A DNA stretch of 15,424 nt from Actinomyces sp. (GTDB lineage Bacteria; Actinomycetota; Actinomycetes; Actinomycetales; Actinomycetaceae): positions 1-15,424 of the forward strand of contig JAHACW010000056.1 of assembly GCA_018375675.1 (NCBI GenBank), in the 5' to 3' direction. The stretch's first letter is position 1. Each line of letters starts with the position of its first letter. Made by a program: the position numbers and the translations under genes. Below, piece after piece: positions 1-1,108 of this stretch. The notes beneath the pieces were generated by a model. That model did not search any database, was not told where the DNA came from, and worked only from the letters and a program-made list of their open reading frames with translations.

Positions 1-155
1 CGGCCGCCCGCGAGGCTAGGGCCTCACTTCGTTCGGCGCCGCGCCTCGAAGCCCGCCCGTGCCCTCCGGTCCCTCCGGCGCCCTCCACACCAGTGGGGCT
101 AGGTCGCTGTAAATTGCCCGGCCAGGCCCCGCCACCGCCCACGGGCACCGCAGCC
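1..155 (+). repeat. Modular GC-rich intergenic repeat, copy A
   Basis: Three conserved blocks can be recognised by comparison with an inverted copy at 2120-2302. Block 1 (1-14, CGGCCGCCCGCGAG) matches 2289-2302. Block 2 (45-109) matches 2187-2251 at 61 of 65 positions by eye. Block 3 (117-155) matches 2120-2158 at 36 of 39. The stretches between the blocks (15-44 and 110-116) are unrelated to those in the other copy and differ in length. The unit probably begins upstream of the window. No coding potential is supported; a small open frame running through it only reflects GC-rich sequence. The layout recalls modular intergenic repeats such as BOX elements, but the sequence is not one I recognise. 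Confidence 0.8.
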
Positions 156-223
156 GGGTTCTCCGGACCCCCAATGTGGTCTGGTCTGTCGTGCTGGAAT
201 TTTGGGGCGCTCCTCTGTGTGCT

Positions 224-407
224 GTTACAAACGTCGTCAATCGGAGGTGTTTTTCGTGTGGATTTCTGATCCGTTGTTACAAACGTCGTCAATCCGAGGG
301 CTTTTTCGCTGAAAATCAAGGTTTTTGGACGCAGATTGACGACGTTTGTAACATGAGCACTCGCAAGGGGGGGGTTCAAACTGCTCCGGTTTGACGACGT
401 TTGTAAC
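224..407. repeat. Hairpin module M1: two direct then two inverted copies of a 19-bp repeat
   Basis: GTTACAAACGTCGTCAATC occurs at 224-242 and 276-294. Its exact reverse complement is at 334-352, and a copy lacking the outermost base match is at 390-407. Copies start 52, 58 and about 56 bp apart. Each copy is followed, reading inward, by a loosely conserved extension (about CGGAGG then a T-rich run). The innermost pair can form a 19-bp stem around a 39-nt loop and the outer pair can pair around it. The loop holds an AT-rich core at 309-333 that resembles one at 4695-4720. Base composition is clearly less GC-rich than the neighbouring genes. No protein is supported here. Confidence 0.85.
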
Positions 408-409
408 GT

Positions 410-465
410 CGGCCGCCCGCTGGTTGCTCGGTCAGGCCCCGCCGCCGCCCACGGGCGCCGCAGCC
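410..465 (+). repeat. Modular GC-rich repeat, copy C (block 2 missing)
   Basis: Block 1 is present in shortened form (410-420, CGGCCGCCCGC). It is joined through ten unrelated bases (421-430) directly to block 3 (431-465), which matches copy A at 32 of 35 positions. The 65-bp block 2 of copies A and B is absent, so blocks appear to be gained or lost as units. It lies between hairpin modules M1 and M2. Confidence 0.7.
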
Positions 466-495
466 AGGCCCTGTCGGCCAGGTGGGCCGGTTGTC

Positions 496-658
496 TGAAA
501 CCCCCATCGCCTTTGCGGGCGCCGACCGAGCCTCAACTGAAACCGCCATCGCCTTTGCGGGCGAGAAATAGGCGTTTTGGGTGCGTTTTTCGGTTGCAGA
601 GGTGATGGTGGTTTCACGTTGGTCTGCATCAGCGGTCGCTGTGGTGATGGCGGTTTCA
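496..658. repeat. Hairpin module M2: two direct then two inverted copies of a 16-26-bp repeat
   Basis: Two direct copies start at 496 and 538 (TGAAACCSCCATCGCC followed by TTTGCGGGCG, one mismatch over 26 bp). Two inverted copies of the outer 16 bp follow at 601-616 and 643-658 (GGTGATGGYGGTTTCA). Copy spacing is exactly 42 bp in both arms, with 63 bp between the starts of the two inner copies. The central part contains GAAATAGGCGTTTTGG (565-580) and a T-run. The architecture equals that of the modules at 224-407 and 692-840, but the repeat itself is a different sequence. No gene is supported. Confidence 0.82.
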
Positions 659-691
659 ACGTCGTCACGTCACAGCTGCCTGTGCGCGAAT

Positions 692-840
692 AAGTTCGCC
701 CTGCTCGACCTGATGTGCGTGCGAGCGTGAAAAAGTTTGCCCTGCTCGCTCACAACACCCCAAATTCTGCGTTTTTGCGCTTGCTGGGCGAACTTTTTCG
801 TGGTGCAGCACGGAAGGGAGGGGTCGTGCTGGGCGAGTTC
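692..840. repeat. Hairpin module M3: two direct then two inverted copies of a 13-16-bp repeat
   Basis: AAGTTYGCCCTGCTCG occurs at 692-707 and 733-748. Inverted copies follow at 783-795 (GCTGGGCGAACTT) and 828-840 (GCTGGGCGAGTTC). Similarity extends outward by about 10 bp (a GTGCG..GAA-like stretch). Starts are 41, 50 and 45 bp apart. The loop between the inner pair contains AAATTCTGCGTTTTTG (763-778), resembling the cores of the other modules. The third repeat sequence is unrelated to the first two. The module ends about 100 bp from the tRNA-Arg terminator. Short open frames crossing it are not credible genes. Confidence 0.78.
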
Positions 841-938
841 TGTCGCACCACCAGTCAGGTACGCCCGCTGCTGGGCGGCCGTCATCTCAGATCGAACAGG
901 GAACCGACTCACTGAGACCACCACGAGCGGATGGGCAT

Positions 939-965
939 GAAAAAAGCACTCCCGAAGGAGTGCTT
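939..965 (-). terminator. Rho-independent terminator of tRNA-Arg
   Basis: On the minus strand a perfect 9-bp stem (957-965 with 944-952) closes a UUCG tetraloop and is followed by a run of U (the A-run at 940-945 on the plus strand). Position and orientation fit the end of the tRNA-Arg transcript. It also insulates the repeat region further downstream. Confidence 0.9.
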
Positions 966-980
966 GGTAGAAATGCAGAA

Positions 981-1009
981 CCCCCACCGGTGGATCGCAC
1001 CGAGGGGGG
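981..1009 (-). other. Extra hairpin between tRNA-Arg and its terminator
   Basis: The arms 981-992 (CCCCCACCGGTG) and 998-1009 (CACCGAGGGGGG) pair over 12 positions with a single mismatch and one wobble, around a 5-nt loop. It lies in the 3' trailer of the tRNA-Arg precursor. It could protect the trailer or be a second termination or pausing element; no U-run follows it. Confidence 0.55.
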
Positions 1010-1015
1010 CCGCTG

Positions 1016-1088
1016 CGCGCCCGGAGGGACTCGAACCCCCAACCTTCTGAACCGTAATCAGATGCTCTATCCATTGAGCTACGGGCGC
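1016..1088 (-). tRNA. tRNA-Arg (anticodon ACG)
   Basis: Read on the minus strand, a full cloverleaf is visible: 7-bp acceptor stem GCGCCCG/CGGGCGC, D-arm GCTC..GAGC, a 5-bp anticodon stem TCTGA/TCAGA around the loop TTACGGT, and a T-arm with GGTTCGAGTCC. The loop gives anticodon ACG, read as ICG in bacteria, for CGU/CGC/CGA arginine codons. The discriminator base is G. CCA is not encoded, so it must be added after transcription. A terminator lies about 50 nt downstream. Confidence 0.97.
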
Positions 1089-1108
1089 TTGCCGTTTGGC
1101 TGGGTATA

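Follow-up and report, generated by a model that had tools for sequence, protein, structure and literature searches.

The first ~850 bases of a 15,424-nucleotide stretch from Actinomyces sp. (contig JAHACW010000056.1, here called the window) harbor three arrays of short sites, A, B, and C, that share one plan, in which two direct copies of a site are followed by two inverted copies. Together they belong to a composite element that is confined, among the genomes searched, to one Schaalia clade (the S. odontolytica group). The best explanation, which is tentative and held with somewhat less than even confidence, is that these are composite exchangeable intergenic elements whose arrays are putative dsDNA-protein platforms with a BIME-like role. 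No description of the arrays was found in the literature searched, most of which lay outside subscription journals.

Arrays, sites, and spacing

The arrays occupy positions 225-846 of the window and take on the segment order G-A-G-B-C when two GC-rich elements (G) are included. Each site has a 16-bp core, which is TTACAAACGTCGTCAA in A, TGAAACC-N5-CRCC in B, and GCGA-N6-TCGCCC in C. The initial annotation had described modules of the same plan with unrelated repeats, which agrees with the three sites being mutually unlike as judged by eye. It had placed the third module at 692-840; an array is present there, but its extent was slightly short, as the C sites span 686-846. The features are as follows:

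120..146, plus strand: G element, GC-rich, upstream of array A; core of a ~130-bp dispersed repeat
225..240, plus strand: A site 1, TTACAAACGTCGTCAA
277..292, plus strand: A site 2, 52 bp after A site 1
336..351, minus strand: A site 3, inverted, 59 bp after A site 2
391..406, minus strand: A site 4, inverted, 55 bp after A site 3
430..456, plus strand: G element, GC-rich, between arrays A and B
496..511, plus strand: B site 1, TGAAACC-N5-CRCC
538..553, plus strand: B site 2, 42 bp after B site 1
601..616, minus strand: B site 3, inverted, 63 bp after B site 2
643..658, minus strand: B site 4, inverted, 42 bp after B site 3
686..701, plus strand: C site 1, GCGA-N6-TCGCCC, 43 bp after the last B site
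727..742, plus strand: C site 2, 41 bp after C site 1, two mismatches
786..801, minus strand: C site 3, inverted, 59 bp after C site 2
831..846, minus strand: C site 4, inverted and degenerate, 45 bp after C site 3, placed by eye

The start spacings in the window are therefore 52/59/55 for A, 42/63/42 for B, and 41/59/45 for C. The spacing of 55 in A, which is 52 elsewhere, contains a run of 8 G. C site 4 has four mismatches and was taken from an eye reading and repeat family D8, having been missed by the motif scan. The C array of the window is counted as a third array of this kind because intact C arrays are present in relatives. To the right of the arrays, the minus strand encodes two tRNAs and, between them at 1206-1301, the small SRP RNA. 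A 65-base inverted repeat (45-109 and 2187-2251, 94% complementary) surrounds this tRNA/SRP segment, and GC-rich sequence resembling it also flanks arrays at other loci.

The spacing is rigid in the relatives (A 52/59/52, B 42/63/42, C 41-42/59/41-42). It was counted in three genomes (G029, G035, and G024) from sites with at most three mismatches, at loci obtained from genome-wide matches with at most one mismatch and from 800 kb of G029 that were read whole. Neighboring sites on the same strand keep a distance of 52 bp in A (21/21 cases), 42 bp in B (107/118), and 41 or 42 bp in C (77/82). The facing centers are 58-59 bp apart in A (10/10), 62-63 bp in B (43/49), and 58-59 bp in C (39/50), and those that depart from the rule are mostly one period longer. 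Outward neighbors, in which an inverted site precedes a direct one, are rare among pairs within 150 bp (A 0/31, B 7/174, C 3/135). The step of 43 bp from the last B to the first C site is the commonest and was found in 25 of the 40 B/C neighbors within 130 bp. Many A arrays start with TGTTAC and finish with GTAACA.

The number of copies had initially been taken as fixed at 2+2, which does not hold, as 2+2 is only the commonest state (A 8/10, B 14/43, and C 19/39 arrays in the three genomes) and states from 1+1 to 9+2 occur, among them 1+2, 2+1, 2+3, 3+2, 3+3, and 2+5. The 9+2 array (L024) is a C array whose nine tandem copies are near-identical units of 42 bp. A B-like array in G026 (L193, 394 kb) has 14 sites (11 direct and 3 inverted, at most three mismatches) over ~970 bp. 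Some A arrays are split by inserts of ~1.4 kb (L142) and ~2.1 kb (L128), and L001 is cut beside foreign DNA; at these loci, the arrays may have been targets for insertion sequences.

Distribution among genomes and along the chromosome

A blastn search with positions 200-860 of the window gave matches in 12 of 98 related genomes. Two of the twelve lie outside the genus and show short matches in the GC-rich part. Within the genus, 10 of 35 genomes carry the arrays as dispersed families, with 4 to 18 matches each, so that the pattern of direct and inverted repeats, for which the initial annotation had proposed a check in related genomes, does recur there. Counts of sites per genome place A in 8/13 genomes and C in 8/13; the B pattern is loose and matches 13/13, with reversed-pattern controls at 0-2. 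In a collection of 84,980 genomes, an exact facing pair of A cores was found in 14 stretches, namely five in S. odontolytica FDAARGOS_732, two in Schaalia sp. ORNL0103, and seven in JVKM01. The JVKM01 records are titled Xylanimonas cellulosilytica 352_XCEL, bear Schaalia-type arrays, and are probably misnamed. Viral contigs contributed 15 stretches, each containing a single exact A site. A plasmid origin was considered and rejected: among the 20 listed of 121 matching plasmid records, all matched over the tRNA gene and none over the arrays. For S. odontolytica, a saturated transposon library has been published (PMC12369343).

In the genomes examined, arrays of the types A, B, and C are concentrated near the origin of replication. 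In G029, the GC skew turns near 1.46-1.48 Mb, and dnaA is therefore taken to mark the origin region; the gene is located at 262.5 kb (G029), 784 kb (G035), and 819 kb (contig 1 of G024). Within 440 kb of dnaA lie 21 of the 23 A, B, or C array loci of G029 and 21 of the 22 of G035, against an expected share of ~0.36-0.37. The corresponding binomial values (6e-8 and 1e-8) are descriptive only, as the 440-kb limit was set after the data had been seen. Both genomes apparently belong to one species with loci in common, so that the two counts depend on each other, and degenerate arrays may have escaped these counts outside the regions that were read whole.

The orientation of the arrays mostly follows replication. 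The B-to-C order, or the arm type in the case of a lone C array, runs from origin to terminus in 15/16 arrays of G029 and 12/13 of G035, and the exceptions (57 kb in G029, 984 kb in G035) are one orthologous locus, which is that of the window. In contig 1 of G024, 12 of 17 decided arrays run from origin to terminus, five run against it, and one more is unclear, with three loci on contig 2 left out of the count. The arm type contradicts the B-C order in three of 27 cases. The arrays are intergenic and, according to a simple gene finder, mostly located behind the 3′ ends of genes. One orthologous pair among the B-C loci (325 kb in G029, 721 kb in G035) and, from a reading of the table, one A-only locus (725 kb in G035) are exceptions that lie between divergent genes. 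As the arrays tend to sit behind the B-side gene, the directions of genes and of replication are partly confounded. At convergent-gene loci, which were counted by hand, all six arrays of G035 (795, 806, 826, 959, 1031, and 1197 kb) point from origin to terminus, and the ten on contig 1 of G024 comprise six with replication, three against it, and one unclear; the three contrary ones are among the five contrary arrays of this contig.

The content of orthologous intergenic loci differs between genomes. One locus between convergent genes carries array A in G029, G035, G001, G021, and G032. Arrays of a further family, E, are found there in G021, G013, G012, and G011, and a degenerate E array in G032. 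The spot is empty in G024 and G026, where the presumed stop codons are just 22 bp apart, which demonstrates that the arrays are dispensable at single loci. A comparison of 10 genomes at this one locus revealed neither a clean insertion junction nor a target duplication. The locus of the window, beside the tRNA and SRP genes, holds A-B-C in the window and B-C in three genomes (G029, G035, and G013); G026 has B there, and G024 has E-like sites with two weak C sites. G021 and G032 have weak B sites only, G012 and G011 have no sites, and G001 gave no match. At this locus, the B-C segment of the window is 65% identical to that of G029 (shuffled ~60%), whereas the flank is 95% identical; arrays at a different locus (G029, G035, and G024) match the segment at 83-84% identity. 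Being closer to another locus than to its orthologue in G029, the segment is read as having been exchanged between loci. Such differences could also arise by gain and loss, and the array of G013, which is 78% identical to that of the window (248 bp compared), indicates that not every difference at this locus needs a swap.

Site conservation and a putative protein platform

The sites are better conserved than the spacers between them. The mean information is 1.78 bits in the sites versus 0.72 in the spacers of 14 A arrays and 1.46 versus 0.96 bits in 36 B arrays, counted on arrays of exact spacing with orthologous copies included. At an orthologous A locus of G029 and G032, 1 of 68 site bases differs, while the spacers are identical at 28/35, 27/37, and 25/35 aligned bases. 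Among the closer genomes G029, G035, G001, and G021, 0-1 of 72 site bases and 3-8 of 109 spacer bases differ. The arms of the B arrays do not covary. The test was performed on 36 B arrays with spacings of exactly 42/63/42, oriented by the adjoining C array and including orthologous copies. At the six variable positions, the identity between first and fourth site (R1-r4) is 2.56 versus 2.54 after shuffling, and that between second and third site (R2-r3) is 2.92 versus 2.91. The tandem pair R1-R2 is homogenized (4.39 versus 3.43 shuffled, of 6). Differences fixed between the arms are found at position 14 of B (G versus A) and positions 9-10 of C (GT versus AC).

The absence of covariation between the B arms and the persistence of sites whose spacers diverge make protein-binding sites the most likely nature of the arrays, rather than hairpins, and the former label of hairpin modules was overstated. 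A, B, and C would each be an array of ~16-21-bp sites for a different putative sequence-specific dsDNA-binding protein. The tandem sites, which are separated by near whole helical turns (52, 42, and 41-42 bp), are opposed, across a center of fixed length, by a second tandem set, and the bound protein would consequently build a roughly symmetric nucleoprotein complex with two arms. Between intergenic sites, the elements would be gained, lost, or swapped. Their role may be that of a BIME-like architectural or insulating platform that acts on DNA topology, fork traffic, or transcription traffic, mainly in the origin-proximal chromosome. Of the three candidates put forward initially (mobile hairpins, structured RNAs, and multi-site protein platforms), the last one fits best.

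Several known systems resemble the arrays in part. The sites of ParB, Noc, and SlmA are origin-biased, and the parS motif is the palindrome TGTTTCACGTGAAACA. The arrays share the origin bias and the putative binding of proteins with parS and nucleoid-occlusion sites as these are generally known. In 800 kb of G029, however, seven parS-like sites (at most two mismatches) form a separate cluster beside dnaA (268566-288433) and none coincides with an array, whereas the arrays are multi-site and spread over ~±440 kb. The NIME/dRS3 repeats of Neisseria are intergenic mosaics of several repeat families, a likeness to the arrays; they differ in their dRS3/RS plan, both points following the general description of these repeats.

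The arrays appear to work most like BIMEs, although they lack three defining features that were tested, namely a palindromic unit (in A and B), alternation, and a RAYT. According to PMC2817692 and PMC3733652, BIMEs bind gyrase and IHF. In the same accounts, REP/BIME elements are dispersed, extragenic mosaics whose copy number varies and which lie behind coding regions, mostly where the neighboring genes are in tandem or convergent, as do the arrays. In contrast, A and B lack palindromic units (no dyad by inspection; C does have GCGA...TCGC), the arrays run all-direct and then all-inverted instead of alternating, and several unrelated site families follow one plan. A Y1 transposase/RAYT (PF01797) was found in 0 of 19 genus genomes, including all ten array carriers, and a RAYT/IS200 origin was rejected on this basis. 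The REP-like mobile hairpin of the initial annotation is therefore borne out by the differing content of orthologous loci but not by its transposase or, in A and B, by its palindromes.

Competing explanations and further families

The strongest rival, which is rather unlikely by our estimate, regards the arrays as MITE-like non-autonomous transposons. The sites would be putative transposase-binding sites, several per end, with both ends joined and moved in trans by transposases that differ in specificity. Elements with iterated ends include Tn7, Tn402, Mu, IS21, and those of the Sleeping Beauty IR/DR type, and tandem sites that face tandem sites would correspond to two such multi-site ends joined together, a likeness that draws on general knowledge of these named ends. 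As in MITEs, the element is short and non-coding and carries terminal inverted repeats, to which the frequent TGTTAC and GTAACA termini of A can be added. Orthologous spots that hold A, E, both, or nothing, the poor match of the window's array to its orthologue inside a conserved flank together with its better match elsewhere, and the very different site counts of the families between genomes are also consistent with mobility. On the other hand, the one locus compared has neither a clean junction nor a target duplication, and no cognate transposase was found, the genome-wide search having covered Y1_Tnp (PF01797) only. Dead copies should lose their sites as fast as their spacers, which the copies examined do not, and a bias in origin proximity and orientation is not expected of an ordinary MITE. 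Both explanations may coexist, as the protein on the preferred platform could itself be a transposase.

An improbable alternative is a replication by-product without function, in which facing repeats would fold in the single-stranded lagging-strand template and slippage or template switching would multiply the units. Copy numbers that change in period-sized steps (the nine near-identical C units of L024 included), the homogenized tandem neighbors, and the B-C orientation that mostly follows replication all point in this direction. Slippage would homogenize the spacers too, yet these diverge while the sites persist, and the B arms are not kept complementary at their variable positions.

Structured RNAs, such as 3′-UTR elements or small RNAs that fold R1 onto r4 and R2 onto r3, are very improbable. 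Arrays mostly lie behind genes, and the fixed arm differences of B and C are G-U compatible in the A-B-C strand and thus usable by this reading. Nevertheless, ~25-45 bases would separate the stems, and the structured-RNA candidate of the initial annotation is unsupported by the 36 B arrays, whose variable positions lack covariation. An Rfam search (E up to 1) likewise gave no match at curated level over the arrays, the lone weak one being to an animal miRNA model far below its cut-off.

Chance or sequence composition is already refuted as a source of the patterns, in line with what had been claimed from the sequence at the outset. An agnostic scan for the R-R-r-r pattern catches A and B of the window at a threshold of at least 11 of 14 matches, below which the degenerate C array of the window falls, and at this threshold 0 of 100 dinucleotide shuffles of window positions 1-1100 gave a match. 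At the laxer threshold of 10 of 14, the 100 shuffles gave one match, but real DNA of high G+C content gives many (68 in 400 kb of the G029 terminus, 259 in 200 kb of G037), so that only thresholds of 11 and above are informative. At threshold 11, 400 kb around dnaA of G029 contain 13 matches, 11 of which are A, B, or C, as opposed to none in 400 kb at the terminus and none in one shuffle. No match at 11 of 14 was found near dnaA in G006 (200 kb), G045 (100 kb), or G017 (80 kb). G037 still shows six matches at threshold 11 and six more at shorter spacing in 200 kb near dnaA; they have no common spacing and are attributed to chance, whereas the spacing of the arrays is fixed over dozens of loci.

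The agnostic scans led to two more families of the same plan, E with a 19-bp and D with a 20-bp period, neither of which corresponds to whole helical turns. E consists of CTGGATAGG units at 19 bp and is present as 3+3 arrays in G029 at 128951 and 153051. Its arrays are ~110 bp long and number dozens in G012, G021, G011, and others (L064, L195-L202, L253-L272). Of the 213 genomes of the family, ten show the tandem E pattern, and these are exactly the ten genus genomes that match window positions 200-860 (controls 0). E is spread over the chromosome although it shares its plan with the origin-proximal A, B, and C. D consists of GCACGTNNNCCC units at 20 bp, with a 4+3 array in G026 (1133274-1133439, L178) and a degenerate one in G029 near 1648997 (L098); D-like sites also adjoin the C array of G029 at 191 kb.

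Five sites that are unrelated by eye follow one plan in one clade, which would mean that either a single protein family reads them or a single process writes them, and either case would be new as far as the literature searched shows. A more far-reaching form of the platform reading, which we consider quite unlikely, is that this one Schaalia clade has its own private set of architectural DNA-binding proteins, paralogous to one another and each reading arrays with a particular site, period, and center as their grammar, and that these proteins mark the origin-proximal chromosome with platforms that follow fork direction. If true, this would be an origin-domain organizer or traffic barrier of an undescribed kind.

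An autonomous element flanked by E arrays was also considered and rejected, as the 10 proteins scanned include no common carrier. The genes between or beside E arrays encode a HepT-like/MNT-HTH pair, a Mutator-family transposase, a SIR2 protein, and others. In G012, the gene for the Mutator-family transposase (Pfam PF00872; L254, 2653-4002) is located among E arrays. The HepT-like/MNT-HTH pair, which is toxin-antitoxin-like, is found between E arrays in G012 and G035 (L253, 4034-5013; L259, 3462-4324), and genes of similar size sit between E arrays in G011 and G013.
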